Origin: Bolinopsis microptera
Taxonomy: Eukaryota; Ctenophora; Tentaculata; Lobata; Bolinopsidae
Direction of reading: 5' to 3'
Assembly: GCF_026151205.1 (NCBI RefSeq)
Contig: NC_087082.1
Coordinates: 13,799,365 to 13,859,364 of the forward strand
Length of the DNA stretch: 60,000 nt
The notes beneath the pieces were generated by a model that saw nothing but the letters and a program-made list of their open reading frames with translations, had not been told where the DNA came from and ran no database searches. Position 1 is the stretch's first letter. Every line of letters starts with the position of its first letter. A program made the translations under genes and the position numbers. Positions 30,966 through 57,905 of the stretch are shown piece after piece.

Positions 30966-31478
30966 CACAGTGGGCTGTGAGTGGGGGTCATGCTAGCATA
31001 GGGTATTTTAGACCATCACACATGCCCCTAACTTTGTTTCTAAGGTAATTTGGGTACAAAAATACGATTCCAATCATTTACAGGTCCGAAAATGTCTCAG
31101 AAAAAAAATTTTGGGCCGATTTTGAGCAATCTTGTAGTACAAAAATAGGAGGCTGATCCCAGGAAAAGTTGTTTTTTTAGAGGTTTAATCAATTTTAAAG
31201 CTCTTTTATGAACTGTAAACGAAGGACAGCTATCTTAGGAACTCAAATCTTTTTGAATTATGAAAAAATATTGATCAGAACAAAAGTTGTGCCTATTTAT
31301 ATGACCAAAATTTTCTGAAACACCAAAATTGTTCCTGTTATTTTCAAAAATTTCGTTTAAAATCACGATTTTTTGGATTTTTATCAATTTTAACTATAAT
31401 TATTGTGATATTTTGATTTTTCATCCATATGCATCTGGTCTAGGGTGCAAAAAATGCCACAAACATGGAGAATAACTG

Positions 31479-33640
31479 AAATGAAATGAAATGAAATGAG
31501 GTATTTATATCCCGCTCATATGATTAACCAACAACACAAGGAAGGTGGTTAACCATGTCAGAGCGGCTGACTGTGAGTGATGTGAGCAAAAGTGTAAAAA
31601 ATGAACTAAAGTATAACTCAGCATAAGGCAAAGACAAAATTAAAACATCTTTTATTGTAAACCACACTAAACTAAATAGAAGCAGAAACCATACAGTACA
31701 TGTAGGTATAATAAAGGTTAGTACAGTGACATAATCAATCAAGAAAGAATCAGATCCAAGTAAGTAAGAGATCAAGGCATAAAATGGAGTGCGGTAAAAA
31801 ATAAAAGCCAATGTGTCTTGCAAAGTGAAGACAATGGAAAGAAAAACATCAGAACAGATTATATAAATGATTCTTTAACATTCGCTTGAAACAGTTGGTA
31901 TCAGTGATACATCTCAACATCAGGGGAAGAGAGTTCCATGCAATCGGTGCATGGCTTGAGAAACGTCTGTCATCAATTTTGGATCTTTTATTCTTTGGTA
32001 CCTTGAGCATGAGATGGTCATCAGGTCTCTTCGACCTGGTCATGGTCATGGTGTTTGAGAGTTCTTTATCCACTACATCCACATCCAGTAGTGCTTTGAG
32101 GTAATCAGGTGCAGTACCGTGAACTGATTTGTGGATTAAAAGACAAACTTTAAAGAAGATTCGTTGGTCTATATATCACAGTGGGCCACCATGCTATATT
32201 AGGTTCAAAATTGAGTATTTCGATTTAGGATGCATTTAAAATGATCTGATCGGAAAACTGTTTCCCTACAAGATGCAAAAAACCAAAATTAATAATTCCG
32301 TACGGTTCAACCGCAACGCGGCCTCGAAAATCGCAATTTTTCAAAAATCGGTTTTGTTCCTTTTTGGCAGTGAAAAATTGCTGTTATTTTATGCCTGTTC
32401 CTCAAATATGATATAATTAAGTAAGTGACTCCTTTTACATCTCAAAACAACTCTCAGATCTTAATTTATTGAAAAAAACCTTAATAGGCTATCTAATTTA
32501 GCTGATTTTTGACATGAGCCTGAGTTTTTGTCCCATTTTTAGGCAAATTTTTGGTCTTCCAGACCAAGAATAGTTGTTAGGCCGCATTAGGCCGCCATAT
32601 TCCATAGTACCATCTGAAAGCTTAGAGGATTCCCTACAATATACAAGAAAAATCAACTTGGGCAAACTTGGGCATTATTTTAAATGCCGATTTGTTACCA
32701 ATTTATTGGCTTAAACTATGTTATTTAGGGCTTATGCCCAAATATGGGCATACATATTTTTGTTATAACTCGGCCATCTTTTGTTCAATCTTGATGAAAT
32801 TTTAAATACAAGTTCTGAAAGCTTTCAGCTACAAGTAAAGCATTTCAAAACTGATTTTGTGGCTTGTGTAAGGAATTTTGAATTTTTGGGCATTTTGGAG
32901 CTAAAAATTCAAGGAGCATAATTCAAAAATCCCCAATTTTCTCAGTTTTTGTGTATAGTAGGGTCTTGAAATTGGTTTGGATTGTTTTTTTGGGTCAAAG
33001 CAGTCTACAGAACACCTTTCAGACATATTTGGATGGTACTAACATGTCTAATATAGCTTGCCCCCCTATTCTGGCCCACTGTGTATATGTGGGCCTTCTT
33101 ATAGAAGGGAACCAAGTCCGTGGTCCTCTCTTCTATGTTATAGATGAAACGAACTGCCCCATTAAGGGTTGATCTAAGTTTGTTCAATCTGGTCTTAGGT
33201 AGATTCATGTAAAGAGAATTACAGTAGTCTAATTTAGATATGACCAGTTGTTTCACCAGCATCAATTTAATGCCTTCATCAAGGTAACGACCAATGGTTC
33301 TTAGATTCATCATTGTCCAGCTGCATTTCCTTTTGACATTATTGATCTGTCTTTCCATATTTAGAGTTTCATCAAATTTGACACCCAGACTCTTCCAGCT
33401 GTCTCCTTTACACTCCGTAGGCAGAATTTCAGTGCTTCCAAATTGCAGTCTGACACTGAGTTCACACTTTTTTAGAACATGGCTCTTTCCTAACACCAGT
33501 AGTTCTGTCTTTGTTTCGTTCAGTTTCATGTAGTTGTTCACCATCCATGCTTTTATCTCTGCAAGACATTTGTTTGTTCTGTCTTGGACATCAATGAACT
33601 GTACCACACGGTTTGGTTTAAATGAGATGTACAGTTGAGA
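31479..33640 (-). pseudogene. 5'-truncated LINE inside the Transib-like element
   Basis: The 3' end on the plus strand is a (GAAAT)n run at 31477-31500, that is an (ATTTC)n tail. The minus-strand coding pieces give the RT C-terminus: AWMVNNYMKLNETKTELLVLG, then SLGVKFDETLNMERQINNVK, then LVISKLDYCNSLYMNLPK (33607-33090). Beyond a second insertion they continue with DQRIFFKVCLLIHKSVHGTAPDYL and APIAWNSLPLMLR with CFKRMLKNHLYNLF (32170-31860). The join across the 907-bp insertion is out of frame, so the LINE is decayed. Sequence on either side matches the uninterrupted element copy at 57.3 kb, which marks the insertion limits. Confidence 0.8.
32177..33083. mobile_element. Transib-like element, family B (907 bp)
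   Basis: Inverted ends start CACAGTGGGCC. The second block, CATGCTATATTAGG at the left or CAAGCTATATTAG at the right, follows after 6 bp (left) or 16 bp (right). The 5-bp duplication TATAT lies at 32172-32176 and 33084-33088. It splits the LINE of 31479-33640 and is therefore the youngest of this nest. The interior is AT-rich with no coding capacity and is not alignable to family A by eye, although the ends are clearly related. Confidence 0.82.
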
Positions 33641-34240
33641 CTAAAATATGTCAATTTAATAGCAAAATTGAGCTCATAAATTATCTAAAAATGCAGCAAA
33701 TTTTACCCAATTTTTGAGTTTCTTAATTTTGTAAACAGAGTTGCCCAAAACTGCCCAAAGTGATTCTTATTGCATCTGATAGGGAATTGTCTAAGCTTTC
33801 TGATGATACCATGCATTATACCGAACTATTGCAAACCAACAACGATTTCTGTCGTTAAATACCCCAAAAATTGCCTAAAATACACGCCATAAAAAAGGCG
33901 CGGTCAAAAATCAGGTGAAAATGTTAAAGTCACACAGTTTTTTTTAGATGGCTGAGTATTCTTAAGTACTATACTGTATTTCAATTATTAAAAACTGCCT
34001 TGATCAAGCATTTTAGCCCAAAATAATAAATATTAGGCAATTTTTGGCTAAAAAAGGCAAAATTTCTTGACAGTGAAAAATGCTATTTTTTCACGCGACG
34101 CCATTTTGGCATCTTGCAAAGTTTTTAATTACGGTTTTTTGCATGAAATCGGGCTAGCGTTTTACAATAAGGAAAGCTTATTTTCAAAGAAATTTAAGAA
34201 AGTCGATTTTAGGCCTATGCTAGCATGGTAGCCCACTGTG

Positions 34241-34557
34241 GAGGAGGAGTAGGACTGAGGAGGAGATTGAGGAGGACCTAGGAGGAGGAGGACCCAGAAG
34301 GAGGACTCAGGAGGAGGAGGAGAACTCAGGAAGAGGACTGAGGAAGACTGAGAAGGAGGAGGACTGAGGAGTACTGAAGAGGATGACTGAGGAGGAGGAG
34401 CAGGATGAGAAGGACTGAGGAGGAGAAGGAGAAGGTGGAGGAACTAGGAGGAGGATGAACCAGGAGGAGGACTCAGGAGGAAGAGGAGGAGGACTCAGGA
34501 GGAGGACTTAGGAGGAATGAGAAGGAGGAGGACTGAATAGGAAGAGGAGGAGGAAGA
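34241..34557. repeat. Purine-rich GAGGA satellite, second block
   Basis: Continuation of the 29.8-kb satellite, cut at its right end by the LTR retrotransposon. Confidence 0.95.
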
Positions 34558-34858
34558 TGTTATTACTGTTCACACCTTTCTCTCTCTTTCGTGACAGAAT
34601 ACTTCTAACGGTGTTTACCTTTTCTAGCAATGACAAGCAAAGAAGGATAACCGATTGGACTGGGGAGGAGTGGAACATTGGCAGCACACTACCGTCCAAT
34701 CGGTAAGTATTTATAATGTTTAGTTATTAGGTATTTATTTGGAATTGGTTTAATTTGGTTGTAAAGTTATTCTATTATGTACTAAAGTATTTTGTTTTAC
34801 AGGTTTTGTACATACGACAATTACTGGTTTTAATTGGTCAACTTAGAGTCATCTAACA
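34558..34858 (+). repeat. Left LTR, 301 bp
   Basis: Starts TGTTATTACTG and ends CATCTAACA. It differs from the right LTR at CTAACGGTG against CTAACCGTG and at TTTTACAGG against TTTTATGGG. Confidence 0.93.
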
Positions 34859-34989
34859 GTGATAGCAGGAAGTCGGAAAACGTTCTACGCAACGACCTGA
34901 CAGTGGCACTTTGTTTGTGTGTTATTTAGACTATAATTTAGAGACTAATTGAGAGACAGTTTTAGAGTTTTTTGAGTCGAACTTTAACT

Positions 34990-35894
34990 ATGAGTCTTCG
35001 TGAGATACCGGTTTTAGACGACAGCGCTGATTACAGCACATGGAAGAAGAAAGTGCTAATATGGCAGCTTGGCACCGCAGCATCAACGAAACAGCAAGCT
35101 AGTAAGCTGATTATGAACATGAAAGGTAGACCACAGGAGGTCTCTATAAACATGACATTAGAGGTGCTAGGGGCAGTGCAGAAGATGGAGTTGATAAACT
35201 CATTGCCGAACTGGACAAACTGTATAAGAAGGACAGTACCCAGTCTTTATTTAAGGCAATAGATGATTTTGAGGGATACAGGAGAGGAGATGGAGAAGAT
35301 ATAGACAACCACATCTTGGAATTCCAGAGGAGGTATAAAATTCTCAAACAGCTCAGAAAGAATGAAGATCTTTACGATGACATGGTATTAGCGTATAGAC
35401 TATTAAATCAGGCAAGCCTAAGTGATGAACAGGCGAGATTAGTTAGAGCAACTTGCACTAGTACATTATCCTATGACTTGATGCAAGAACAGTTAAAAAG
35501 GACGTTTGGAGATGGATTCACAAGGAATGAGAATCACTCTAGTCTACCTTTTAAAAGTACTCCTATGGAGGAAATGGTAAAGCAGGAACCTGTCTTTCTA
35601 GCTGAGGATTACAAATTGGGGTCTGACATTCACTGGACCAGAAATGGGGATCAAAGGAATTTCACGGGTCAACCAATGAGAGAAGAAAACAGATATAACC
35701 CTGATGCTCAGGATAGAGGACAGCAAAGATACAACTCATATGCTCAGAAACGAGGACAAAGGCTGTATATGAGGGGGAGTAGTAGTCCCAAGGTATGTTG
35801 CTTTATATGCCACCAACCAGGTCATATGGTTGCTCAGTGTTCATTTAACACATTCCCCGGATCTGAGGATGCTGACCTTGGAAATACGGAATGA
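34990..35894 (+). pseudogene. Gag-like protein with CCHC knuckle, one frameshift
   Basis: From ATG at 34990 (MSLREIPVLDDSADYSTWKK) the frame has the DYSTWKKKVLIWQL start of a Gag family common in invertebrate LTR elements. Near 35160 the frame shifts by one; the other frame continues as DKLIAELDKLYKKDSTQSLF and LEFQRRYKILKQLRK and runs to a stop at 35894. The C-terminus has a basic, Arg/Gln-rich linker and one zinc knuckle, CFICHQPGHMVAQC (C-x2-C-x4-H-x4-C), which binds RNA in nucleocapsids. No protease motif follows. The frameshift could be a mutation; a programmed shift is unlikely inside Gag. Confidence 0.8.
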
Positions 35895-36737
35895 TCGAGA
35901 GAGCTAGCAATACATAAAAACCTTTGTTCAGAGTAGATTTTGAAAAGTATCTTGATTGAGAAACAAGAAGGCAATCAAATGAATGTTTTGTGTCGTTAAA
36001 TGTATGAGTCAAGAGCGTTGAGTCAAATAAAAGTCAATGTTTCTATTTTAGGAATTGTGAGTTTATTCAGCTTTATGTTTTGTAATTTGTTATGTGTCGT
36101 GTTTTAAGTCTTTATCGCATTTTATTGTCGGATTCTATGATACTAAATATAGAAATGAGTCTAATATTTATTATAAGATCAATTATGTCTGTTTATAAGA
36201 AATAAGAGTAATATTCAGTATATATCCAGTTCCATGATTCGTAGAATCGTGTTTTAGTCGTTTTTACGAGTTAATTGCTGAGCAATGTCAGGAGTATATA
36301 TTATTTCGTCTCGTCAGTTTTTATTTTAAGTTTGTATATTTCATTTTAATTTGCAAAAGAATGTGGCCGCAGGTAAACATAATAATATATCTGCGTATAT
36401 AATATGTTTGTAGCTAATTTAGGGAGCTAATCTACTTTGCTGAGTTGTTCTTTTAGTATTTATCTCAAATTATTTACTCGTTTTATGGGGACGCTTTTAG
36501 TTTTTGAGCTAGATATTATAACATCTCGGTGAGTTTTTTTTGAGAACAAAGGGATCTCTGTATTGCTAGTAATTTTGAGCTCGTAGATGTAGAAAGTACT
36601 ATTAGTGTTAGCATTTGAAAATGCGCGCTGAACGCGCGCGCGCGTGGCATTTATATTTTAGCGGGGTTTTAAAGAGATTTTAATATGACTTGTTATGTTT
36701 TTCTCTGTAATAAGTTCCGAACAGTTTCGTCTCGATA
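35895..36737 (+). other. LTR element internal noncoding region
   Basis: AT-rich sequence without pol coding capacity. It includes a short GC-rich spot near 36625-36645 (GCGCGCTGAACGCGCGCGCG). Confidence 0.5.
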
Positions 36738-37565
36738 GGTCACTGCGGGTGATAATCTAAAGACAACTGTTGCTCCAACGGGGTTGTTGAGCGTAAATAC
36801 AGGGACGATTTTAATATTCGGCAGTTTCGTCTTGATAGGTCACTGCGGGTGATAATCTAAAGACAGCTGCAGCTCCAACGGGGTTTGTTGAGCATATTTG
36901 TGGGTACAAGTTTATTGTTTGGTAGATTTGTCCAGATAGGTCACTGCGGGTGATAATCTGAAGACAGCTGTAGCTCCAACAGGGTTGTTGAGCGTATTTG
37001 TGGGTACAAGTTTATTGTTTGATAGATTCGTCCAGATAGGTCACTGCGGGTGATAATCTGAAGACAGCTGTAGCTCCAACAGGGTTGTTGAGCGTATTTA
37101 ATTATTTGATGGATTCGTCCAGATAGGTCACTGCGGGTGATAATCTGAAGACAGCTATAACCCAAACGGGGTTGTTGACTGTATTTTAATTATATAATGG
37201 ATTCGTCCAGATAGGTCACTGCGGGTGATAATCTGAAGACAGCTATAACTCAAACGGGGTTGTTGACTGTATTTTAATTATTTAATGGATCCGTCCAGAT
37301 AGGTCACTGCGGGTGATAATCTGAAGACAGCTATAACTCAAACGGGGTTGTTGACTGTATTTTAATTATTTAATGGATCCGTCCAGATAGGTCACTGCGG
37401 GTGATAATCTGAAGACAGCTATAACTCAAACGGGGTTGTTGACTGTATTTTAATTATTTAATGGATTCGTCCAGATAGGTCACTGCGGGTGATAATCTGA
37501 CGACAGCTGTAGCTCAGACGGGATCTTCGAGCGTATTTTTGTGTAATTTAATAGTGCAATCTTGA
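36738..37565 (+). repeat. Nine-unit tandem array inside the LTR element (100-bp then 88-bp units)
   Basis: GGTCACTGCGGGTGATAATC recurs at 36738, 36838, 36939, 37039, 37126, 37214, 37302, 37390 and 37478. The spacing is thus about 100 bp three times, then 87-88 bp five times. The 88-bp units near 37214-37478 are almost identical, while the outer ones diverge, which suggests recent unequal exchange in the centre-right. The array lies directly upstream of the polypurine tract and right LTR. Confidence 0.93.
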
Positions 37566-37608
37566 GAGAAATTGGGGCTAGCATTGCTGGAAAAGGAAAA
37601 CCGGGGAA

Positions 37609-37909
37609 TGTTATTACTGTTCACACCTTTCTCTCTCTTTCGTGACAGAATACTTCTAACCGTGTTTACCTTTTCTAGCAATGACAAGCAAAGAAGGATA
37701 ACCGATTGGACTGGGGAGGAGTGGAACATTGGCAGCACACTACCGTCCAATCGGTAAGTATTTATAATGTTTAGTTATTAGGTATTTATTTGGAATTGGT
37801 TTAATTTGGTTGTAAAGTTATTCTATTATGTACTAAAGTATTTTGTTTTATGGGTTTTGTACATACGACAATTACTGGTTTTAATTGGTCAACTTAGAGT
37901 CATCTAACA
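37609..37909 (+). repeat. Right LTR, 301 bp
   Basis: Direct copy of the left LTR, preceded by the polypurine tract and followed by the GAAGA duplication. Confidence 0.93.
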
Positions 37910-38168
37910 GAAGACTGAATAGGATGAGGAGGAGGGGGACTGGGGAGGACTGAGGAGGAGGAGGACTGACGAGAAGGATGAGGAGGAGGACTGAGGACTG
38001 AGGAGGAAGAGGAGGAGGATGAAGAGGACCCAGGAGGAGGAGGACTGAAGAGGAGGACTGAGGATGAGGACTGAGGAGGAGGAGGAGGACTGAGGAGGAC
38101 TGAGGAGATTGGCTGAGGAGGATGACTGACAGGGAGGAGGAGGAGGACTGAGGAGGAGGAGGAGAAGG
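37910..38168. repeat. Purine-rich GAGGA satellite, third block
   Basis: End of the satellite that begins at 29.8 kb. Confidence 0.93.
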
Positions 38169-38490
38169 TTTGAAAACGCTGTTTGAAGGTTTGTTAAAAT
38201 GTCAGACGCAAAACGTATGTTTAAATTACACTAAAGAAATGGCGTTAAAACAAAGTAAAAACTGTTAAACGGTCGACGCGCGGGCAGAAAGAGTTTTAGC
38301 AGAGTTTTAGCGCGTCTTAGAATTCAATCATTCACACGCAAATTCTGCACGTGCGACATTACAATGCAATGTATGTACCATGCCAACGTTTGATGTAATT
38401 GGATTTGTTTACATAATTTGCACGTGGGCGGTCGTACAAAGTTTGTACAAAAATAATTTTACCCTTTCAATCTGCCTTCTTGCTTTTCAC
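38169..38490. other. Non-repetitive flank with GCGCG spots
   Basis: No gene seen. It could be a 5' flank of the candidate coding exons that follow. Confidence 0.3.
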
Positions 38491-39160
38491 ATGGAAAATT
38501 TACCGGATGAATTAATGGACGTAGACACCGAACAACAGACCATTGACAATGAACGTTGTATAACGATGATTATGTATGATTATATATTTTTACGTTTCAT
38601 TCCCTTCATGTTATTTGATTTAGTTATTCACATTTTACATTTATATTTCGTTCGTTACGCTATTCACAAAACTTGCATCATGCATGTTTACGATTTGAGA
38701 AGAGACAATGGATTTTAAAAGAGGCAATGAAAATTTTGTCAAGATGCAAAATAATTAACGTTGCAATTATAGACCATGACAACAATTAAAGTGATAAAAG
38801 GAAAGGCCTGTATTTCATATTTTATTGGTAAGTTTTTGTACATCATTAATGATTTTATAAACTTTGAGATTGGTGACATCTCTTTGACGATATGACATAA
38901 AAATATATATAATATAGATAATAATTTTTAAGACAATTAGTAAAGGATATCTACATTTACAACATTCAGATGGAGAAGAGAAATGCTATTTTCCAAAGGA
39001 TGGCGAGACTGTAGAACAGTCATTGGTCATCGTCTCGACCATCCTTGAGACTTTAGAATTTTATGAAGATTTTAAAAGAGACAATGAAAATTTTATCCAG
39101 ATTTATATTGATGAACCTGATTTTATCGGAAAGGGTAAAAGAAGGAGTAAGAGAAAGTGA
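38491..39160 (+). CDS. Candidate small gene in pieces: acidic start and basic end
   Basis: An ATG at 38491 opens MENLPDELMDVDTEQQTIDN, a natural-looking acidic start. After AT-rich DNA, a frame at about 38948-39160 reads HLQHSDGEEKCYFPKDGETV and ends in YIDEPDFIGKGKRRSKRK, with a nuclear-localisation-like tail. Whether the two are exons of one gene is not shown; no clear GT donor is seen after the first piece. A short echo of the second piece (GATTTTAAAAGAGGCAATG) lies at about 38708. The family is not recognised. The element-rich setting makes a transposon-borne gene possible. Sequence resembling 38560-38690 recurs at about 40950-41110. Confidence 0.3.
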
Positions 39161-40000
39161 TGTATCTATTATCTATGATGTATTATTATTATGACAATCT
39201 TTAAATGGCTCAGTGTAAATAAATTATCACTCAATGAAAAGAAGACTGAATTCCTATTGTTTGATTCTGTTGATCAACATGATGAATTAACCATTGAATG
39301 TAATGAGGTAACTTTCACAATCAAGGAGTGCAAAGAGACAAAATATCTTGGCCTCATTCTAGATAGTAAATTAAACTTCAAAAGCCATGTAGATTATATT
39401 ATTAAGAAGGTCATGAAGAGAATTGGTGCCATGTATAGAAGTAAAGCACTGCTACCCATTAAATATAGGAAAATGTTTGCCAATGCACTCATGTTGCCAC
39501 AATTCGATTATTTAGACACGATCTATTGTAGAGCTGGCAAGACAAAACTTGCTGAACTTGACACTCTGTACAAAAAGGTAGCCAAAATAGCTCTCAACGT
39601 TCCACAAACAGAGAGCAGCCTTAATGTTTATAGAGACATGAAATGGTTACCACTCCATCTTAGACGGCAACTCCATCTGTCAAATTATATGTTTAGAATC
39701 ATCCATGACAATTGTCCTACAAACTTTATGAACAAATTTAGTTACATATCAGGAGGTAGTAGGAGCGGCGAAAGCTGCAACCTATATGTTAATAGATCAA
39801 CATCACATAAAAACTTTCAATACTTGGGGGCAAAATGTTGGAATAATGTTCCAACAGATCTACGAAATCTGCCCGATGTTAAAAGCTTTAGTGATTCGTA
39901 TAAGAAACAGCTACTCTCATCTATAACAACAGACCCTAATTATACCGTCGACAATTCATATGACAAATTTTACACTGCAATCATAGTCGACGATAACTAA
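39161..40000 (+). pseudogene. 5'-truncated LINE, RT C-terminal part (plus strand)
   Basis: The open frame to a stop at 40000 begins in the segment after the RT active site (WLSVNKLSLNEKKTEFLLF, then YLGLILDSKLNFKSHVDYI). It continues through PQFDYLDTIYCRAGKTK and the conserved end region (CWNNVPTDLRNLPDVKSF, then SYKKQLLSS). The catalytic palm, endonuclease and ORF1 are missing, as expected of 5' truncation. The frame is intact over about 270 codons, so decay is slight. It is a different family from the LINEs at 25 kb and 52 kb. Confidence 0.8.
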
Positions 40001-43476: not shown

Positions 43477-43613
43477 ACAGAAAAGTTCAAATAGTGCAAT
43501 TGGTGTTCGATATTAATATTTTATTATAATAAAACACTTATATGTAATATGGTTGTAGGTTTACAACCTACCAGGACGCGCGCCGAGTTGGACTCGTCGA
43601 CGGTCCAATATTA

Positions 43614-46399: not shown

Positions 46400-46522
46400 A
46401 ATATAGCAATGGCCAATTGGCTGACTATAAGGTCATGGCCTGAACTTTAATAGTCAAGTGATGCTAAAGCAGAGCACAAATATGTAATAAGTTAATAGAT
46501 AAAAATACTGATTCAATGATTA
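46378..46522 (+). repeat. Left inverted repeat arm
   Basis: Matches the complement of about 49420-49590, with small indels (the right arm has an AACAAACAATTTTTTTAAAT stretch absent here but present in the third copy at 50795). Confidence 0.8.
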
Positions 46523-46623
46523 AAATTATAGCTGTGAGTGTCAATAAATTACTGTGTCATAAAAAAAGGAACGATGTACACGTGATCTGAGATACCAATA
46601 TCTCAATATCAAAAGGATAGTGT

Positions 46624-47058: not shown

Positions 47059-47155
47059 CTTTCTGTTTTCTCAGTTCTTCTTTCTTTTCTTTCATCTTGC
47101 CCATATCCAGCTTGGTGATATCCTGGTCTTGTTGGTTGATTAAACTCACAAGATC

Positions 47156-49283
47156 TTAAGTGAGTGCCACTGAGAATGCATATTCACGAGATGCTATCCT
47201 GACAGGATTGATGATACCTAGGCCTCCATATCGAACAGGGAGTTCAAGGATATCTCTTTCATGCTGGTTGACAGGGCGACCGAGGAGGGCTGGAATGAGC
47301 ACATGCATGATCTTGCTCTCTAGTGGGACAAAGTGCTCTCCAATGTCTGGTATAGTACGCATGTAGTATCTCCATCCGTGGCATATTCCTTTAGTAAAGG
47401 CCGAATAAGCCAGTTGTGGTTCTTCTGTCGCTACATCTGCTAGTTGATCAATATCAACTATCCATTTTTCGACTTTTTCTCTGATGTACTCTTCCCTGAA
47501 TTCTTTTGAGCCTACAACAGCACCAAGATGGCGTTCTCCGGATGTCGTGATCTTAACTCCCAGGTGTTTAAACAGGGTTTCTGCTTCTATTAGCTCTTCG
47601 GGATTTTTAACAATCAGAATTGTCTTTTTTGCGTTGGGGCGGTACCCATATCTTGGGCCTATTTCACAGAGTCTATTCCACCAATGGAGCAGTTGGATGA
47701 AGCTTCCACACGCAGAGCTGTCGTCAGCATACCACACCATAGTTGTTTCTGCATAGGCTTTCAGATCATCTATTATAGGTCTGGTGGCTATGGAATAAAA
47801 TTGCATTGCTGCAACATCTCCTTGTGTGTTGCCTTCTTCACCCCAGATGAACTCCCCAGACTTTGAGCCGGAGATGAAGAGCTTTGTCTTTGCTTGGTAG
47901 GTATTTTTAAGGAACTGGTGAAACACAGGGCAGGTTGTTGCAACAGTATCAAGAGCCAGCTCTCGGTGTAAACTGTTGAACGCATTTGATGCATCAACTA
48001 GGAGAAGGCCTTGGCTGTTTTTGTTGGCAAAGTTCTCGGCCATTGAATGAACTGCGGCTTCTATACCTGATTCAATGCCACTGCAGGTTTGTAGGGAGCC
48101 ACTTGCCTCCTTAATGTGTTCTTTGATAGTTCTTGTAACTGTTTTTGTCATAATCCTTCGCAAGACTTCACCAATGCCGATAGGTCTGACTCCTGGTCGC
48201 TTGTCTAAGGGGATCAGTCTGCTTGCAAGAAGATCACTGAGCATGGTTGGTGCAATGGTTTCAGTGCATAATCTTTTAGTAACATCGGCTATGGCTTGAG
48301 CTAAGGTATCATTGCATTTTCCATAGCTCTTTGAGCATAGAATGTGTTTCCAACCGTCTGCATCAATGAGAGTGGGGCCTCCTGATCCATGGGTGTTCTT
48401 GGCAGCAGCTTTGATGGCTTCACTGTCAATTTCTTCAAACAGTACAGGTTCTATGTCAATTGTTGGATGTTTCTCTGGCCCATCACGCTTCGTTGCAGGA
48501 GGGTGTTTTTCTCGCAGCTGTTTGATTGTGTCATCATTAATAGGAAGAATGCCTGTTCTCTTCTCATTGTCTATTAGTCGTGTGGCTTCTTTTACTTTAC
48601 CCTGGAGCATTCTCCGGCAGAACGCCTTCTTTTCATTGAAATCTTTAGTAACATTTATCTTCTGAAGGCGGCTCTGTATCATTCTACATTCTGACAACAG
48701 TCCTTCTATGTCTCCAACATCCCATTTCTGAAGCCTGGAGATCAGATATTTGTTGTTCTCACGGGCTTTGGACCTTGCTGATGGTTTCTGAAGGAGCAGA
48801 GGAATAAATATCTGAACAAGGGAAAGTGAAACTTTCTCCCATACGGAGTCAGGGGTGAACATAGTGAACAGTCTGGTTAGCTCAATGATGAAATCTTTGC
48901 CAGCCTTGCCACGTGGAAGTCTCATTAAATTCTTATCCCAGGTTATTATCTCTGCATAGACGCTGTTGATCATACCAGTAATGGCTTCCTCGCTATCCAT
49001 CTCTCCCCAAATGAACTTGCTTCTATCCATCTTGCCAGTTTTCTTGCATTTCAGGCATATCCACTCGGTTGACTCTTTCCCTATCACATCATATTGTTTA
49101 ATTGATACTTTGGCACATGAAATGTGAAACCATATGTTGCATTTTCCACATTCAACCCATCTGGCTGTTCTATTGCCATCTCCTTTATTGCAGATTCCAC
49201 ATAAATCCGATTTTGCAGTGACAGGGTTTTCTTCTACCTTATCTGATTTGAGTCTTTCCGATTTGATATATTCTTCTATTTGA
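47156..49283 (-). CDS. PHD finger plus reverse transcriptase (about 708 aa)
   Basis: The frame is open from about 49283 to the stop at 47156; the first ATG lies further in, so the N-terminus may be lost. A PHD finger comes first: CGICNKGDGN, then WVECGKCNIWFHISC, then WICLKCKK (Cys4-His-Cys3). Then a helical region (about 75-200) and the RT: GSGGPTLIDADGWKHIL, LIPLDKRPGVRPIGIGEVLR, LLLVDASNAFNSL, GNTQGDVAAMQFYSIA and the catalytic VWYADDSSACG, with a thumb-like region (KHLGVKITTSGERHLG) and GRPVNQHERDILELPVRYGG. All RT motifs, including the two Asp of YADD, are present. This RT type is common in cnidarians, sponges and lancelets and usually continues into a C-terminal nuclease-like domain, which here is cut short. 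Confidence 0.82.
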
Positions 49284-49590
49284 GTTCAACCCATCCAGTA
49301 CAACCCAAGATGTCAGCCGACTTTTTTGGAATGTTTCTAATGAAGTTTTAGTAAGAATTGAGGGAGCCAGTTATGTCACTGAGCCAGTTATGTCACTGAA
49401 TCAGTATTTTTATCTGTGCTCTGCGTAATGCATCACATGAATCAGTTTTTAATCTATTAACTTATTACACATTTGTGCTCTGCTTTAGCATCACTTGACT
49501 ATTTAAAAAAATTGTTTGTTCAGGCCATGACCTTATAGTCAGCCAATTGGCCATTGCTATATTATGTGTATATTGTTTGAATATTCTTCA
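49284..49590. repeat. Element edge and right inverted repeat arm
   Basis: Includes a short direct repeat (GAGCCAGTTATGTCACTGA twice at about 49352-49398) and then the complement of the 46378-46522 arm, ending GTTTGAATATTC. Confidence 0.75.
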
Positions 49591-49599
49591 TTTTCGTTA

Positions 49600-49862
49600 T
49601 GTCAGTAATAAATAAAATAACTATTATCTTTTGTTCCATCCTCATGTGGCAAAGAATCGTTTTATAAATCTTTATTCCACTGGGAAGACTTTAAAATAGG
49701 ATAATGTTCTTGATAAAATTTTTAAAAATATTGTATTTGATAAATAATTAATGTTGGTGGGAAATGTTTATTATTTATTTTTTCACATAGTGCGATGATA
49801 CTTTGTAGACATGAGTGATGATGTGATATCATAAATTTTACTCTACTTTACTTTACTTTATT
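49600..49862 (+). pseudogene. LINE 3' end, extreme 5' truncation
   Basis: A few C-terminal codons (AKNRFINLYSTGK) are followed by a 3' UTR with GTGCGATGATACTTTGTAGA and an (ACTTT)n-like tail. The same segment, more diverged, occurs at 56480-56740. Both are 3'-only copies of one LINE family. Confidence 0.65.
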
Positions 49863-50073
49863 AAGACATTAATTCTGCCCTCCTTAAATTGAAAGCTGCG
49901 AACACATATAGATCATTTTGTGGTGTTGCCTGTATTTACTACATAATGATTGTATTCTATTGAGCTACGACATCATACCCTGTTCTTCCTATAGCACCTC
50001 GAGGCCCATAATTTCCCTGACGCTGATCTCTTTCGGCAGTATCTAGATAGCCCGACCCGACCCCTGTCTGTGT

Positions 50074-50157
50074 ACAACTGTCCACGTACAACTGTCCACA
50101 GACAACTGTCCACGGACAACTGTTCACGGACAACTGTCCACAGACAACTGTCTACTA
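50074..50157. repeat. Subterminal 14-bp tandem repeat
   Basis: Six copies of ACAACTGTCCACGG or close variants, back to back. The right end has only about two copies, so the ends differ in repeat number. Confidence 0.9.
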
Positions 50158-50730
50158 AATCATATTACTGCATAATAACAGTATCCCCTGAATCAAGCAG
50201 GGTTCACATCATCGCACGCGAATTTCAATCAGCGGTGGTGTCAAGGCTTACCAAACGATTAAGCAACCTTACGAGATCAGTTCACATCATGCAATATATA
50301 AAGATTAACTTTTATCAGACTGCATCAATCATTTCTATCATCAACTCCTTCTTGAACAACTACAACTATGGTCTCAGAGAAAACAGTATCTCCAGTCAGA
50401 CACCGCGTTTTCTGACAGTCCCGTCATCTGTGATATCGTAATGCCAGCTAGTCCTTTTATACTCAAACAGAACAGCAACTGTAAAAAGGTCTTGAGAGCG
50501 AGCTTCTTTTAATACTTTCAACACTACTATATAACAAATAATTTGAGTTCAGGGATGGTAACCAATGACGGGCAAACGGGGCACACTGATAGTGCCCCAG
50601 CCAGTAGAGAACATGTAGAGACGAATGAACAAGCTGAAGAAGAACGTACTAAACCTGAAGAAGATTGTTTCTGCAACGAACACATTGATGATTTTTTTTT
50701 TATTTGGGTGCTCCTATAAATGAAGAAAGA
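50158..50730. other. Unclassified interior of the TIR element
   Basis: The open frame at 50070-50441 is largely translation of the terminal repeat and is not supported as a gene. Nothing else recognised. Confidence 0.35.
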
Positions 50731-51353
50731 ATATTCAAACAATATACACATAATATAGCAATGGCCAATTGGCTGACTATAAGGTCATGGCCTGAACAAA
50801 CAATTTTTTTAAATAGTCAAGTGATGCTAAAGCAGAGCACAAATGTGTAATAAGTTAATAGATAAAAATACTGATTCAATGATTAAAATTATAGCTGTGA
50901 GTGTCAATAAATTACTGTGTCATAAAAAAAGGAACGATGTACACATGATCTGAGATACCAATATCTCAATATCAAAAGGATAGTGTCTAGAAACATTCAT
51001 AGTCCATGGTGGCAGGTATCAAGTTAAACGAAGTTACACTGACTGGCAATGTATACGATTGCCGTCTCCCTCTCTCACCCCTGACCGCTATCAGGGTGCT
51101 CCTGAGGATTGAGAATCTAATCCTGGTGCGCATGTAACACATAATAGCCGCATAGTCTTCTCCTCTCTTCTGGGATAGTTTTTCAGCGAGTCTCTTGTGG
51201 TATTTTGTGGCTTGTGGACCCCATCCGCCATTTGTTGAGTATATAAGTGGGGTAAAGGTGCCTTTTTCCACCTGGATGATTCTGTTGAACAAGTTGTACT
51301 TTTTCATTTTCCTCATTTCACGAGCTTTATAGATCTGTTCCATATCTTTTTTG
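50731..51353 (-). pseudogene. Second copy of the PHD-RT element's left arm and nuclease end
   Basis: The left inverted-repeat arm (50731-50880) and the nuclease C-terminus (50987-51343, ending CYMRTRIRFSILRSTLIAVR and NLIPATMDYECF) are nearly identical to 46378-46980, with a small insertion (NLFNR against NNR). The copy stops abruptly at about 51353, where the CR1-like LINE begins. Confidence 0.8.
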
Positions 51354-52144
51354 TCATTGATGATTCTCTATGGATCAGATGTGATTGGTGCAACAAATGG
51401 TGTCATATTGATTGTGTTGGACTGACAGGACTTGACAAGGATCAGGTGCTTTTGATCAAAAAATATAAGTGTCCACACTGCATTGTCAATGCGACAACAG
51501 TGCTGATTAAGTTGAGTGAAACCATTAATGAAACGGTTACCAATGCTGTTAAAAACAGTCTGCAGAACGCGTTACCAACAGCAATGGCTGCTGTCAAAAA
51601 AGATATAGTCAATGAATCATCCTCAAAAGTGAAGAGCTACGTTGATGCAGCAAAGGTTGACCTCCAGGCAACTATTAGTGACAAGCCACCAACTCAATTA
51701 GTGAAGGCAACAGTCCAACAAATTGATGCTGACAAGATCGAACGGATCAAAAGAGAATGTAATGTGATCATCAGACACGTTCCCGAAATGGCTATCAAAG
51801 AGAACAGATCTCAAAGCAATGATCTCAAGTTTTTACATGAAACCTGTGGCATGGAAGAAGACGTGATTGTGTCCTGTTTCCGGGCAGGTAAATTAACTGA
51901 ATCTGGTGAAAGCAGGGAACATCAACCTAGACCGCTGATTGTAAAACTAAAATCAAAAGAGGCTGCATTGCATTGGAGTAACTATGGTAAAGGTTGGAAG
52001 ATAGAAGTGGATTCTGAAAAAGCAAAGAAAGAAGTTTATTGGATCAATCAGGATCTGAACAGAGCTGACAGAGATGTCCAATTTTTTGTGAGACAGGAAC
52101 GGAGAAAGCGACTTGCAGAGAAAGCAAAGATAAAGAATACCTAA
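51354..52144 (+). CDS. LINE ORF1 (5'-truncated): partial PHD finger, coiled coil, RNA-binding part
   Basis: Open from the junction at about 51354: DDSLWIRCDWCNKWCHIDCV and then YKCPHC form the second half of a PHD finger; the first Cys pair is cut off. Then come a helical Ala/Lys-rich region (about residues 45-110), ADKIERIKRECNVIIRHVPE and a mixed domain with FRAGKLTESGESREHQPRPL and VKLKSKEAALHW. The basic end is RQERRKRLAEKAKIKN. This is the usual CR1/L2-type ORF1 architecture, an RNA chaperone that travels with the LINE RNA. Loss of the start codon means this copy cannot express it normally. Confidence 0.82.
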
Positions 52145-55100
52145 ACCTTAAATTGTTTTATAGTAACAGTAATAGTTTATATAACAAGTTTTGTGAATTG
52201 AGAAATGCTGTTTCGCTGTACCAGTCTGACATTGTTTGCATAAATGAAACTCATTTTAACAATGAAATTATTGATGCTGAAATTAGCATACCTGGTTTCA
52301 AAATATTTAGAAAAGATAGAGATTTTACAGTTAATGAAGAAGTAGGAGAAAGTTCTGTTAGTAGTGGTGGAGGCTGTATTATTTATATTAAAGACTCTTT
52401 GAACCCAGTTGTCATAGATTGGTTTAGGGTCACTGATTCGATTGCTGTTGAATTCGATAGCAACATTGGTAGGGTAAATATTGCATGTATTTATAGATCA
52501 ATGTCTCTTTCTAAAGCGCAGAACAATGCGATGACCAAAATGATTGCAAAACTAGCTGTTTTTAATGTTGAATCAATCCTAGTTGGAGATTTAAATTTAC
52601 CAAATGTATCTTGGCTTAGTGGAACTGTTAATGCTCCTTTAGGAACAAGTAATAAGAGTTTAATTATAGAAAAGAATTTTATGGAATGTGTACAAGACAA
52701 TGGCTTGGTTTGGTATATCACAGATGAAGTTACCAGACGTAGAGTTGTCAGCGGTAAACTTCAAGAGAGTACACTAGATCAGGTTCTCTCTACAAACGAA
52801 GCTATTGTCAATGAAGTAATGATTGTCTCCCCCTTGGGGAAGAGCGATCATGTTTGTTTTAATGTAGAATTAAATCTAAGTCTTAGTAACAGTAAGCAAG
52901 ATGATGAGGCTGCAAAGGAGCCTAGAAAGCTATGGGGAAAAGTCTCTGGCAAAGAATTGTTACACAGATCATCTGAAATTGACTGGTCTTTTAGTGAAGG
53001 TACTTTAACTTCTGAAGATATGTGGAGTGAGTTACACTCAAAGCTTAACTTAGTATCTGATATAGTTCCGACGGAAAAGAACTTTAAATGTGAGCCTTGG
53101 GCAAACTCATCCTTAAAAAGATGCAGGAAAAAGACAGATAAATGTTGGTATTATATTTTTGATAATAATCCTTCTTCTGAAAATCTTAATGTTGCACTGA
53201 ACCAACAAGGACAGTTTGATAGTAAGTCATTTAAATGTAAAGTTAATTATGAAAGAAAAATTACACAGTGTATGAAATATAATACGAAGCCATTTTATGC
53301 ATATTTAAGAGGGAAAAGAGTGTTAAAAAGTTGTGTATCATCCCTGGAAAAACCGGACGGATCTTTGACCAAAAGTAATTTTGAAACTGCCGAAGTATTG
53401 GCTGATGCTTTTGCTTCAGTTTTTGTCAAAGAACCAGATGGACCTTTGAACAGAGAATGTTATTTTATTGCGGATGAGTTAAACATTGAAAATATTGAGA
53501 TAACAATGGATGATGTTGGCAGAGAACTGAAAAGAATTAATATTAGTAAAAGTAAATGGCCAGATGGCATTCATCCTAAATTATTAAAAGAACTTGAACA
53601 TAATTCAAGTTTTGTTTCTGCTGTGACTAAATTATTTCAAACATGTGCTTCAAGTGGAAAAATTCCAGAACAGTGGAAGACAGCAAATGTTACATCTCTT
53701 TATAAAAAGGGTAGTCGGAAAGATGCCCTAAATTACAGGCCAGTGTCACTTACATGCATTTTATGTAAATTATATGAAAAATTAGTAAGGAGGCATATTA
53801 TGAGTTTTGTTAGTAAGAAGATAAATCCAAACCAGCATGGATTTGTAGAAGGTAAATCTTGTTTATCTAATCTATTAGAGAGTGTAGAATGTATCATCGA
53901 ACTATTAGAGGATGGTGCACCCGTAGATGTGTTTTACTTAGATTTTTGTAAAGCATTTGATAGTGTTCCACATCATAGACTACTTACAAAAATGAGAAAT
54001 TTGGGTATAGGTGGTAACACTTTAGATATTGTGAAAGACTTTTTATCTGGAAGAAGATTTAAGACATTCGTTGGTGGAGCATATTCCTACCTTCGTGATG
54101 TTTTATCAGGCGTCCCACAAGGGTCTGTTTTGGGTCCTTTATTGTTTGTCATTTTTATCAATGACTTGCCTGATTGTATTAATGGTATATCTAAACTGTT
54201 TGCAGATGATCTTAAAGTTATTATGGATGCCAATGACACTGAAAGCACTTTCAATATGTTAGAAAGCTTGCAAAACTGGCAAAATGTGTGGCTGTTAAAG
54301 TTTAATCCTAGCAAATGCAAAATAATGCATGTTCCATTTAATGAAAATCCCCTTCAAGAATATGTATTTAGTGGTATTACACTTGAATGTATTGAAGCAG
54401 AGAAAGATCTTGGAGTTTTAACTTCTTCAGATTTGAAATGGTCGAAACATATTAAAAGTTGTATCAGTAAAGCAAACAGTATGATTGCATGGGTTACAAG
54501 GAATCTCATTATAAGAGAAATTAACGTTATGAGAAATGTTTATAAAACTATAATAAGACCCCACTTGGAGTATTGTGCTCAGTTGTGGTCTCCACCTGCC
54601 TGCCATGGGAATTGGGCTACTATCATTGAACTGGAAAATGTCCAGAGAAGGTTCACACGCCTTATTGATGATATTGGAACACTTCCTTACAGTGAAAGGT
54701 TGGATGCCTTACAGATTACAACACTCGCAGAGAGACGGGTTAGAGGAGATTTGATTGAAGCCTACAAAATTGTAAATGGATTGGTTGAGTATGGAAAAGA
54801 TATTTTCAATTTAAGTAGATCGGGAGATAAAATTGTTAGCACTAAATCTAACAATATTGATAGAAATATTAAAACCTTGTCTAATAATTTTTTATCAGAG
54901 CGTGTTATCAGCTTTTGGAATAAATTACCATCATTTGTTAGAAATTCAGTGTCTGTTATTGATTTTAAAATTAATCTAGAAGAATTTAAAAAGACTAATA
55001 ATTTAGTAGACACAGGCAACTTTTGGGAAGTGTCAAATATAGTTTTAGCAAAAATAGAGGGTGTAAATTATATCGAAAAGAAGAAGCAACAAGTTCAATA

Positions 55101-55152
55101 TTTATATAAAAACCCGTGTGTTGCCAAGAGAAAGGGAATAAATATCTCATGA
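52069..55152 (+). CDS. LINE ORF2: AP endonuclease and reverse transcriptase
   Basis: The frame is open from a stop at 52066-52068 to 55152, overlapping the end of ORF1 in another frame. Endonuclease motifs: LKLFYSNSNSLYNKF, DIVCINETHF, VGDLNLPNVSW and KSDHVCFNVEL. RT motifs: NYRPVSLTCILCKLYEKLV, NQHGFVEGKSC, VFYLDFCKAFDSVPH, GVPQGSVLGPLLF and the active site KLFADDLKV (the two Asp at codons 685-686 counted from 52153), then KDLGVLTSSDLKWSKHI and NVQRRFTRLIDDIG. The layout and the LPxNYRP..GFVEGKSC text fit CR1/Rex-type LINEs. There is no ATG in frame before 52501, which lies inside the endonuclease, so ORF2 must be reached by reinitiation, frameshift or a non-AUG codon. All catalytic residues that I can recognise are present. 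Confidence 0.88.
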   Translation, partial: QRCPIFCETGTEKATCRESKDKEYLNLKLFYSNSNSLYNKFCELRNAVSLYQSDIVCINETHFNNEIIDAEISIPGFKIFRKDRDFTVNEEVGESSVSSGGGCIIYIKDSLNPVVIDWFRVTDSIAVEFDSNIGRVNIACIYRSMSLSKAQNNAMTKMIAKLAVFNVESILVGDLNLPNVSWLSGTVNAPLGTSNKSLIIEKNFMECVQDNGLVWYITDEVTRRRVVSGKLQESTLDQVLSTNEAIVNEVMIVSPLGKSDHVCFNVELNLSLSNSKQDDEAAKEPRKLWGKVSGKELLHRSSEIDWSFSEGTLTSEDMWSELHSKLNLVSDIVPTEKNFKCEPWANSSLKRCRKKTDKCWYYIFDNNPSSENLNVALNQQGQFDSKSFKCKVNYERKITQCMKYNTKPFYAYLRGKRVLKSCVSSLEKPDGSLTKSNFETAEVLADAFASVFVKEPDGPLNRECYFIADELNIENIEITMDDVGRELKRINISKSKWPDGIHPKLLKELEHNSSFVSAVTKLFQTCASSGKIPEQWKTANVTSLYKKGSRKDALNYRPVSLTCILCKLYEKLVRRHIMSFVSKKINPNQHGFVEGKSCLSNLLESVECIIELLEDGAPVDVFYLDFCKAFDSVPHHRLLTKMRNLGIGGNTLDIVKDFLSGRRFKTFVGGAYSYLRDVLSGVPQGSVLGPLLFVIFINDLPDCINGISKLFADDLKVIMDANDTESTFNMLESLQNWQNVWLLKFNPSKCKIMHVPFNENPLQEYVFSGITLECIEAEKDLGVLTSSDLKWSKHIKSCISKANSMIAWVTRNLIIREINVMRNVYKTIIRPHLEYCAQLWSPPACHGNWATIIELENVQRRFTRLIDDIGTLPYSERLDALQITTLAERRVRGDLIEAYKIVNGLVEYGKDIFNLSRSGDKIVSTKSNNIDRNIKTLSNNFLSERVISFWNKLPSFVRNSVSVIDFKINLEEFKKTNNLVDTGNFWEVSNIVLAKIEGVNYIEKKKQQVQYLYKNPCVAKRKGINIS

Positions 55153-55382
55153 ACTTGTTTTTATCTAATTTTTTTATTAACGGTTTTTTAACATTTTAAA
55201 CTTTTTAAAAAAACTTATTAATTTAATTTCTACTATAATATGTAAATAAATTATGACAATTATGTTAGTTATAGAATTTGTTTGTTTTTTAATGACGAAG
55301 GCTGTGAAATGTTCACAGTTCTGATAATGAGGAAATCAGAAAGAATGTTTAAAACTAGTGATGATGTTTATGTCATTATTCT

Positions 55383-55408
55383 TAATCTAATCTAATCTAA
55401 TCTAATCT
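55383..55408 (+). repeat. (TAATC)5 LINE tail
   Basis: A simple-repeat 3' tail in place of poly(A), as expected for CR1/L2-type LINEs. Confidence 0.9.
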
Positions 55409-55455
55409 GTCCAGAGAGGATGCTGTCTGTTCTGATATTCTTGTACTTCTTGCAG

Positions 55456-55671
55456 GGGGAGCAGCGCCATGTCAGTCCATCTGGAGACTTCAAGGACGAG
55501 CAGGGAACCAGGGAAATAGATGCGTTACACATGGAGCTCTTTAGGAGGTTTTTCTGGAATAGGAAGTCTCGAGCATTCTCTAGGGAGGCCGTGGGTCCAT
55601 TAATTTCGTCCATTAGACAAAAGAGTACCATGTCAGGAATTGGAATAGTTGTTGTTGATGATGGCAACTGA
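55456..55671 (+). CDS. Candidate exon: acceptor-led 71-codon frame
   Basis: TTGTACTTCTTGCAG is a strong splice-acceptor-like sequence. The frame that follows reads GEQRHVSPSGDFKDEQGTRE, then DALHMELFRRFFWNRKSRAF, and ends SGIGIVVVDDGN before a stop. It looks compositionally like real protein but belongs to no family I recognise. It lies inside the 9-bp-duplication element, 45 bp after the LINE tail, so it may be an exon of that element's lost gene or a captured host exon. On the opposite strand an alternative reading has a WRCSPCKK motif that could be a PHD scrap; the two readings compete. Confidence 0.3.
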   Translation, partial: GEQRHVSPSGDFKDEQGTREIDALHMELFRRFFWNRKSRAFSREAVGPLISSIRQKSTMSGIGIVVVDDGN

Positions 55672-55689
55672 TAATACTTCACCAAAAAC

Positions 55690-55890
55690 GAACGACTTAT
55701 ATACCACATTTAAATCGTAATCATTTATTTCATTGAGCAATATGCTACGCTACAATCAACTAATCAATCCTATTCGTAACTAATTATATCCGAGAGACCA
55801 CATTTGAATCGTAATCAATAGTTTGATCCAGTAATTTACTATGCTACAATTAATTATGCTAGTCGTAACTAATTGCATCCAAGATACCAT
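55690..55890. repeat. ~97-bp direct repeat, two copies
   Basis: CCACATTT(A/G)AATCGTAATCA followed by TACAAT and TCGTAACTAATT occurs twice, just inside the right end of the TIR element. Confidence 0.7.
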
Positions 55891-56006
55891 ACATACCATT
55901 CAATTTCATAAGATTTGCGGTCATATGATCTGGTAGACTAGACAGGTGTCCGTGGACAGTTGTCCGCGGACAGGGGTCGGGCTATCTAGATACTGCCATC
56001 TCTTTC

Positions 56007-56479
56007 ACCTCCAACTTTCTCGTTGACCTCCACCAAACATTTGGTTCTTGCTGACTTTCATCTTAGCATCAACAACATATCTCAAATTTTGGTAATCTGA
56101 CACCTCTTTATCATCAAAATCTCTTGCCTTCGGCGCCCCTTTATTCAACACATATACTCCTTTTACCTTAGGTCCACTGCATGTAATAAACAAACCTGGG
56201 CATATTTATGGCTTTTATTGTCCTCATCCTCTCGTGAGCCCTAACCCCATGGCCATGATATAGTACTCTAGATCATCTACCCAATCACTTTACTCCATTC
56301 CCTTTGTGAACACTCCCATCCCCTTGTCAACCATCCTTGTCGCTAATGTATCTTTGTACACGAGTGAGGACTGCATTATATTTACTATGGGAACAAGCCC
56401 CTGAAGATATATTATTATTAACCAGAATTAGAATAAGACCAATACAATAACCTATCAAAAATTTACTCTTCAGTAGTTC
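56007..56479. other. Flank, no clear gene
   Basis: A minus-strand frame (56005-56193) reads plausibly but has no recognised domain and changes frame at the insertion border; not supported as a gene. Confidence 0.35.
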
Positions 56480-56745
56480 ACAATGATCATCTTTGGTTTC
56501 ATCCTTATGTAGCTAAGAAACGTTTTATAAATCTTTACTCCATTGGGAAGTATAAATGAATTACATTTTTTTATGTTGTTGTTATTCATGATTTATATTT
56601 GATAAATTATTACTTTTAAATTTGATGGAGAAATAGTTACTGTATATTTTTCCATGTAGTGCGATGATACTTTGTAGACATTAGTGATGATGTTATGTCA
56701 TAATTTTTACTTTACATTACTTTAATACGTAGACACATATTTTTC
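56480..56745 (+). pseudogene. LINE 3' end, second copy
   Basis: AKKRFINLYSIGK codons, then the GTGCGATGATACTTTGTAGA segment and a TTTAC-rich tail: the same 3'-only LINE fragment as at 49600-49862, with more substitutions in its first part. Confidence 0.65.
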
Positions 56746-56801
56746 AGTTTTCACATATTATGCCTTGCGTTCCTAAGATATTGCGCTACAAAGTTCCAGG
56801 T

Positions 56802-57905
56802 CACAGTGGGCTGTGAGTGGGGGTCATGCTAGCATAGGGTATTTTAGACCATCACACATGCCCCTAACTTTGTTTCCAAGGTAATTTGGGTACAAAATAC
56901 GATTCCAATCATTTACAGGGCCCAAAATGTCTTAGAAAAGTTTTGGGCCGATTTTGAGCTCTCCTGTAGTCCAAAAATAGGAGGCTGATCCCAGGAAAAG
57001 TTGTTTTTAGAGGTTTAATCAATTTTAAAGCTCTTCTATGAACTGTAAACGAAAGACAGCTATCTTAGAAACTCAAATCTTTTTGAATTATGAAAAAATA
57101 TTGATCAGAACAAAAGTTGTGCCCATTTATATGACCAAATTTTTCTGAAACACCCAAATTTTTCCTGTTATTTTCAAAAATTTCGTTTACAATCACGATT
57201 TTTTTGGATTTTTATCAATTTTAACTATAATAATTGTGATATATTGATTTTTCATCCATATGCTTCTAGTATAGGATGCAAAAAACGCCACAAACATGGA
57301 GAATAACTAAGATATGTCAATTTAATAGCAAAATTGAGCTCATAAATTATCTAAAAATGCAGCAAATTTGACCCAATTTTTGAGTTTCTTAATTTTTTCT
57401 TGAAAAAAGCCCAAAGTAGCCCAAAGTGATTCATATTGCATCTGATTGGGAATTGTCTAAGCTTTCTGATGATACCATGCATTATAGCGAACTATTGCAA
57501 ACTAACAACGATTTCTGTCGTTAAATACCCCAAAAATTGCCTAAAATACACGCCATAAAAAAGGCGCGGTCAAAAATCAGGTGAAAATGTTAAAGTCACA
57601 CAGTTTTTTTGATGGCTGAGTATTCTTAAGTACTATACTGTATTTCAATTATTAAAAACTGCCTTAATCAGGCATTTTAGCCCAAAATATGAAATATTAG
57701 GCAATTTTTGGTTGAAAAATGCAAAATTTCTTGACAGTGAAAAATGCTATTTTTTCACGCGACGCCATTTTGGCATCTTACAAAGTTTTTAATTAAGGTT
57801 TTTTTGCATGAAATCGGGCTAGCTTTTTACAATAAGAAAAGCTTATTTTCAAAGAAATTTAAGAAAGTCGATTTTAAGCCTATGCTAGCATGGTAGCCCA
57901 CTGTG
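56802..57905. mobile_element. Transib-like element, family A, copy 2 (1104 bp, uninterrupted)
   Basis: CACAGTG, 16 bp, then CATGCTAGCATAGG at the left; CACAGTG, 6 bp, then CATGCTAGCATAGG (complement) at the right. The 5-bp duplication CAGGT lies at 56797-56801 and 57906-57910. The interior aligns with copy 1 (30966-31478 plus 33641-34240) with scattered substitutions and small indels. It is non-coding, so it would need a Transib/RAG1-like transposase supplied in trans. It is the clean reference copy of the family in this window. Confidence 0.85.

Follow-up and report, generated by a model that had tools for sequence, protein, structure and literature searches.

A stretch of 60,000 nucleotides from the ctenophore Bolinopsis microptera (NC_087082.1, positions 13,799,365 to 13,859,364; hereafter the window) contains three inserted elements, named A1, A2 and B1. 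Each of their ends consists of the heptamer CACAGTG followed by a second conserved block, and within each element the spacer between the two is 16 bp at one end (long end) and 6 bp at the other (short end). Comparison with a larger copy bearing the same ends identifies them as Transib ends, and the source as a Transib. We consider it quite probable that A1, A2 and B1 are non-autonomous Transibs resembling miniature inverted-repeat transposable elements (MITEs), which are moved in trans by the transposase of larger copies, with one long and one short end synapsed. The elements and their parts are located in the window as follows.

30966..34240, plus strand: element A1, probable non-autonomous Transib copy, about 1.1 kb before interruption, from pairwise alignment to A2
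30966..31002, plus strand: A1 long end, CACAGTG, 16-bp spacer, CATGCTAGCATAGG
34214..34240, minus strand: A1 short end, CACAGTG, 6-bp spacer, CATGCTAGCATAGG
30961..30965: A1 GAGGA duplication, left copy, within GAGGA repeat
34241..34245: A1 GAGGA duplication, right copy
31477..33640, minus strand: 3' piece of a long interspersed nuclear element (LINE) within A1, in two parts (31477-32173 and 33086-33640) separated by B1
32177..33083, minus strand: element B1, probable member of a second non-autonomous Transib family, within the LINE piece, long end first on the minus strand
32177..32203, plus strand: B1 short end, CACAGTG, 6-bp spacer, CATGCTATATTAGG
33047..33083, minus strand: B1 long end, CACAGTG, 16-bp spacer, CAAGCTATATTAGA
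32172..32176: B1 TATAT duplication, left copy
33084..33088: B1 TATAT duplication, right copy
56802..57905, plus strand: element A2, probable non-autonomous Transib copy of family A, uninterrupted, 1104 bp
56802..56838, plus strand: A2 long end, CACAGTG, 16-bp spacer, CATGCTAGCATAGG
57879..57905, minus strand: A2 short end, CACAGTG, 6-bp spacer, CATGCTAGCATAGG
56797..56801: A2 CAGGT duplication, left copy
57906..57910: A2 CAGGT duplication, right copy

All six ends were read in the sequence and carry CACAGTG and a second block as the initial annotation had claimed, with 16 bp on the left and 6 bp on the right in both A copies and the reverse in B1. It had also given each element a 5-bp target duplication. 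This holds for TATAT at B1 and CAGGT at A2, where the match covers exactly 5 bp. At A1 the length is unreadable because GAGGA sits in a GAGGA-rich repeat and the match extends over 8 bp; this degenerate repeat is found on both sides of the element (30900-30965 and 34241-34320). The bare heptamer is not rare, with 13 occurrences in the window (G+C 38.0%) and a mean of 6.2 in shuffled sequences.

The layout was then counted over the genome (264.65 Mb in 232 contigs; C and L numbers below are our handles for contigs and loci). The census pattern was CACAGTGG...GCTANNNTAGR with free spacing. It is exact, so more diverged ends are uncounted, and it fixes the CACAGTG heptamer, hence the census is no test of the heptamer; one copy, L056, has CACTGTG at one end. 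The two-part end, in contrast to the bare heptamer, is rare: genome-wide its pattern has 140 matches and the reversed pattern 12. By range, 65 matches (reversed control 1) are observed in the short range and 79 (control 11) in the long range. Among the 144 census matches the spacer is 6 bp in 62 and 16 bp in 72, which is 134 of 144. The remaining spacers are 15 and 10 (two each) and 8, 18, 33, 35, 36 and 38 (one each). With another pattern, whose spacing was free over 8-21 bp, all 52 matches are found at 16, including three tandem fragments from one place.

Converging ends no more than 12 kb apart were combined into pairs. Of the 53 combinations obtained, two cross between the nested A1 and B1 and were set aside, which leaves 51. 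Most of these pairs are defined by position and orientation, and flanks were read for the elements of the duplication set described below. Among the 51 pairs, 49 are 6/16, one is 6/15 and one is 6/10. A looser reading adds seven elements whose partner end lies outside the exact pattern, all seven of them 6/16. With both ends located in 58 elements, 56 are thus 6/16, and neither 6/6 nor 16/16 is found. The spacing noted initially in three elements is therefore near-invariant across the genome. The 42 unpaired ends comprise the seven paired on the looser reading, eight with odd spacers (8, 10, 15, 18, 33, 35, 36, 38) and 27 single ends with spacer 6 or 16. For seven of these 27 (L044, L046-L049, L053 and L057) no partner is found in roughly 10 kb read inward from the end.

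Both flanks were read for 26 elements, and in 24 of them the duplication is exactly 5 bp. The two exceptions are A1, with its 8-bp match in the repeat, and the 6/10 copy (TGATA/TGACA, four of five positions). In L016, the 6/15 copy, the 5-bp duplication is clean. Part of the long end is missing from the 6/10 copy; this copy and the single end with spacer 35 look like damage post-dating insertion. For B1 an empty-site comparison was made with the LINE copy in L039, which differs at that place, and the joined flanks were not located.

A family-A copy with its own transposase is found outside the window:

C3:4782663-4786589 (L040 564-4490), transposase on the minus strand of L040: family-A element of 3927 bp, 6/16 ends, duplication TATCT

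CACAGTG is present at both ends of this element. The transposase is encoded by two open exons giving 740 amino acids (aa) when spliced; the junction was picked by eye and is consistent with the uninterrupted frame of a relative, L059. Among solved structures exon 2 matches HzTransib (6pqn, E=1.1e-11), amphioxus RAG1L (6b40, E=6.1e-8) and vertebrate RAG1 (1.4e-5), and it scores 41.3 bits with Pfam RAG1 (cut-off 25). Exon 1 matches HzTransib (2e-7) and no Pfam family. The motifs GFDG and SEGGIEACNK align on their HzTransib counterparts, and the protein tail has the form Cx2Cx3GHx4C (CKHCDMRGHSRRWC). L040 therefore has the attributes by which a Transib is recognized, namely a RAG1-core-like DDE transposase without RAG2 between the ends, a CAC-initial heptamer and a 5-bp duplication. 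The initial annotation had expected a Transib or RAG-like transposase between ends of this type; one is present here, and no non-Transib transposase is found between such ends. For the other families of the 6/16 group no transposase-bearing copy is found among the loci read. A2 matches L040 at 95% over 498 bp on the short-end side and at 92% over the 37-bp long end; family A may therefore plausibly have arisen from such an element by deletion and be mobilized in trans.

Two relatives of this transposase were identified. A search of the genome with the L040 exon-2 protein gives 38 matches, mainly short pieces and 21 of them with stops, while the Pfam RAG1 search finds two places, L040 and L059. 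The L059 transposase is 61% identical to that of L040, scores 49.4 bits with Pfam RAG1 and has an open frame without the Cx2Cx3GHx4C tail. Upstream of its gene a long end is observed, CACAGTG followed after 16 bp by CATGATAGTTTAGG. The second relative, L060, is a separate Transib at about 30% identity, 4348 bp in length and with the duplication TGGTG. In its long end 18 bp separate CACAGTG from CTGGAAAAAATCAAG, and in its short end 9 bp separate CACAGTG from CTGGAAAGAATCAAG. The L060 exon matches HzTransib (3.2e-8), with MIDGK aligned to a like HzTransib motif; we take GFDG, SEGGIEACNK and MIDGK to be positions with catalytic residues. Two more short ends of the L060 type, with spacer 9, are found on C5, at most 2 kb from fragments of related transposases. 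The polarity is common to these elements: the long end lies upstream of the transposase in L040, L059 and L060, and the short end downstream in L040 and L060. Although it is a single pair outside the window, the 18/9 layout is a more independent witness of the asymmetry than families A and B. When the L060 spacers are measured post hoc to an A-rich core, GAAARAATC, they become 21 and 12, which is a lead only. Several transposase fragments of both Transib lineages are found within about 1.5 Mb (C5:12621204-14081450).

According to the initial annotation, families A and B have no further alignment to each other. This is not the case. B1 is inserted in reverse, and with long ends placed first A and B are collinear: A2 aligns to a B copy over 137 bp at 72% with 73.4 bits, while the best of 100 dinucleotide shuffles gives 31.0. 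Overall the A/B alignments cover 137-182 bp at 70-72%. A/C alignments of 93 bp and B/C alignments of 144 bp are also found. Family D has 157 bp in common with B, inverted relative to it, and no alignment to A or C that exceeds the shuffled controls. Because the interiors of A, B and C align, their 6/16 layout was probably inherited once from a single ancestor, and A and B do not count as independent evidence.

On the proposed mechanism, the transposase of larger copies with the same ends would move A1, A2 and B1 in trans. It would cut at CAC, and the second block would be read by another DNA-binding part of the protein. One long end would be synapsed with one short end, and the offset of 10 bp, one helical turn, would leave the two second blocks facing the same side of the DNA, comparable to the 12/23 signals of V(D)J recombination. 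That the transposase in fact requires such short/long pairing is a reading to which we lean with reserve. The long-spacer sequences vary by family (TGTGAGTGGGGGT, CAGAATAGGGGGG, CGCGAAGGGGGGT, CAGAACAGTGGGT and TGCGCGGGGGGGT after GGC or GTC) and their length stays at 16; a length kept while the sequence changes argues for constraint. So does the spacer of 16 kept in L059 beside a transposase diverged by 39% (long end only), and so does the distant L060, whose single pair of ends has different spacers, a different block and a 9-bp offset. In most families, CAGAACAGTGGGT excepted, the long spacers end in a G-run (approximately GGGGG[TG]CA, e.g. at 30966-31002), which is perhaps a third recognition element particular to the long end.

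The same layout could be an inherited accident, in which one end of an ancestral Transib grew or shrank by 10 bp, the transposase tolerated the change and the descendants keep it without any pairing rule. The shared interiors of A, B and C in the same orientation mean that a single event would cover their 6/16 copies. In addition, a non-autonomous family formed by internal deletion inherits both ends, the G-run common to most families indicates that the spacer sequence is partly inherited, and there is a 6/15 copy whose duplication is clean. We nevertheless regard an accident as rather unlikely, since the spacer length is constant at 16 where its sequence is not, also at L059, and since L060 has another offset, other spacers and another block. 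Moreover, Subgroup I Transibs are reported to be asymmetric throughout (PMC9435367).

Several points weigh against a functional pairing requirement. The copies of the families are not independent and descend from common ancestors, so the layout would be inherited anyway, 6/16 may be one such accident, and the requirement is only plausible. L016 with its 6/15 spacers could be read as tolerance by the transposase, while its lost base may also postdate insertion. A short end of L059 was searched for and not found. L060 has no Pfam RAG1 match and its tail is incomplete (CKLCNKEGH, no C at the fourth place); a search of the genome for a second long end of its type, allowing up to 3 mismatches, returned only itself, so that 18/9 stands on one long and three short ends. 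In the literature most Transib families are said to have symmetric ends (PMC8289069, in excerpt), and a proposal exists that asymmetry makes no difference to invertebrate RAGL (PMC7204232, in excerpt).

A wider reading is that the quantity conserved in a branch of Transib and RAG is the offset between ends, about one helical turn, and not the absolute spacers. It draws on 6/16 and 9/18 in the ctenophore, 4/13 in Aureococcus RAGL, and 12/23 in some insect Transibs and the vertebrate signals. Exceptions are known, namely ProtoRAG (27/31) and the numerous Transibs whose ends are symmetric, and we hold this reading as a tentative and somewhat doubtful one. If it is true, RAG2-free transposases in what may be the sister group of all other animals would already have had the pairing of short with long ends known from V(D)J recombination.

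As for the source, a RAG1L/RAG2L transposon like ProtoRAG in place of a Transib is very improbable. It would account for the match to amphioxus RAG1L and for the Cx2Cx3GHx4C tail, a form described as the CTT* motif of invertebrate RAG1L (PMC7204232, in excerpt). The tail is also assigned, as CTT1, to Subgroup I Transibs (PMC9435367). The best match among the solved structures, however, is HzTransib, the only Transib met there, and not RAG1L. In L040 only three frames exceed 84 aa, the two exons of the transposase and an antisense frame of 119 aa; a RAG2-like gene would not fit in what remains unless it were split into small exons. Thus the RAG2-like gene beside a RAG1-like gene that characterizes RAGL elements has no long frame in this 3.9-kb copy. 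A genome-wide search with the RAG2 family gives no match, but its controls are also silent in 14 of 14 genomes, so this negative carries no information. An origin of the ends in another cut-and-paste superfamily (e.g. CACTA-like) converged on CACAGTG has next to no probability and is rejected: CAC termini do occur outside Transib, but a RAG1/Transib-type transposase is found between these ends and the duplications are 5 bp.

The closest known elements are the Subgroup I Transibs, which all have asymmetric terminal inverted repeats (Tao 2022, PMC9435367) and resemble the present elements in a RAG1-like transposase without RAG2, a CTT1 tail (here in L040) and asymmetric bipartite ends. The present data differ in that 6/16 was measured across numerous copies and that a second lineage shows 18/9. 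Six ctenophore Transib-like proteins are reported in the same work, with Mnemiopsis and Pleurobrachia proteins in a figure legend; its main text does not state their subgroup or spacers (PMC9435367). A 12/23 asymmetry is described for some insect Transibs, namely Drosophila Transib5 and Anopheles Transib2 and N1-N3 (PMC8355894, in excerpt, citing earlier work). Like the present ends, these have a heptamer, a spacer and a second motif, with spacers about one turn apart, but the excerpt gives spacers of about 12 and 23 and a nonamer-like motif in place of 6, 16 and CATGCTAnnnTAG. The spacers 6/16 and 18/9 were not met in the Transib literature searched, part of it in excerpt, and the figure and supplement of PMC9435367 could hold them. 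To this extent the 6/16 Transib is new, while asymmetric Transib ends as a type are already known.

Among more distant systems, Aureococcus RAGL also has asymmetric ends with 4/13 spacers (a 9-bp offset) and 5-bp duplications, but it contains RAG2L and other motifs (PMC9435367). Amphioxus ProtoRAG has bipartite asymmetric ends (27/31) and works better with unlike ends than with like ones; it differs in its 4-bp offset, another second element and RAG2L (PMC8289069, in excerpt). HzTransib has a related transposase, but its ends are reported as symmetric (PMC8289069, in excerpt). The V(D)J signals share the consensus heptamer CACAGTG and a second motif placed at either of two distances that differ by about one turn. 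They differ in their 12/23 spacers, A-rich nonamer, RAG1/RAG2 recombinase and location at gene segments instead of transposon ends. The ends described here have 6 and 16 bp and CATGCTAnnnTAG in place of a 12 or 23 spacer and an A-rich nonamer, and an A-rich block is found only in L060. In the N-terminal parts of the L040 and L060 proteins no match to a nonamer-binding domain is found among solved structures. The ctenophore system combines fairly young copies with simple ends of 27 and 37 bp and a transposase whose frame is open, so that a short/long rule in a RAG2-free relative of RAG becomes directly testable, and it bears on whether asymmetric ends came before RAG2 and adaptive immunity.

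The relative order of insertion can be read in the window. A1 aligns to A2 in two blocks, 30966-31477 at 94.0% and 33640-34240 at 94.5%, and is split by the LINE piece, which was then hit by B1; the order is thus A, LINE, B. Against the LINE in L039 (C10:475482-481457), the two parts of the LINE piece show 99.3% and 99.6% identity; the long frame of the L039 LINE matches a reverse transcriptase with 102 bits and also endonuclease families. This 6-kb C10 copy was considered as an autonomous element and rejected, as it is a MITE containing a LINE. A reverse-transcriptase frame is also found in a longer family-A copy, L043. B1 is 92.5% identical to a genomic copy, L020. Eight family-A copies have a mean identity of 98.2% with gaps left out (range 95.0-99.6), so that their movement is fairly recent.

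Three further loci of these families were observed. At C10:12830922-12830977, a family-D long end has a G-run grown within its spacer, giving a spacer of 35, probably by slippage after insertion. L008 (C3:2278539-2278699) consists of three tandem units of about 63-68 bp, each with the first 30 bp of a family-A long end (CACAGTG...CATGCTA), and is a lone family-A long end that was tandemly duplicated. The longest pair, C10:17814867-17822302, spans 7436 bp between family-B ends with spacers 16/6, which leaves room for a transposase or an insertion.

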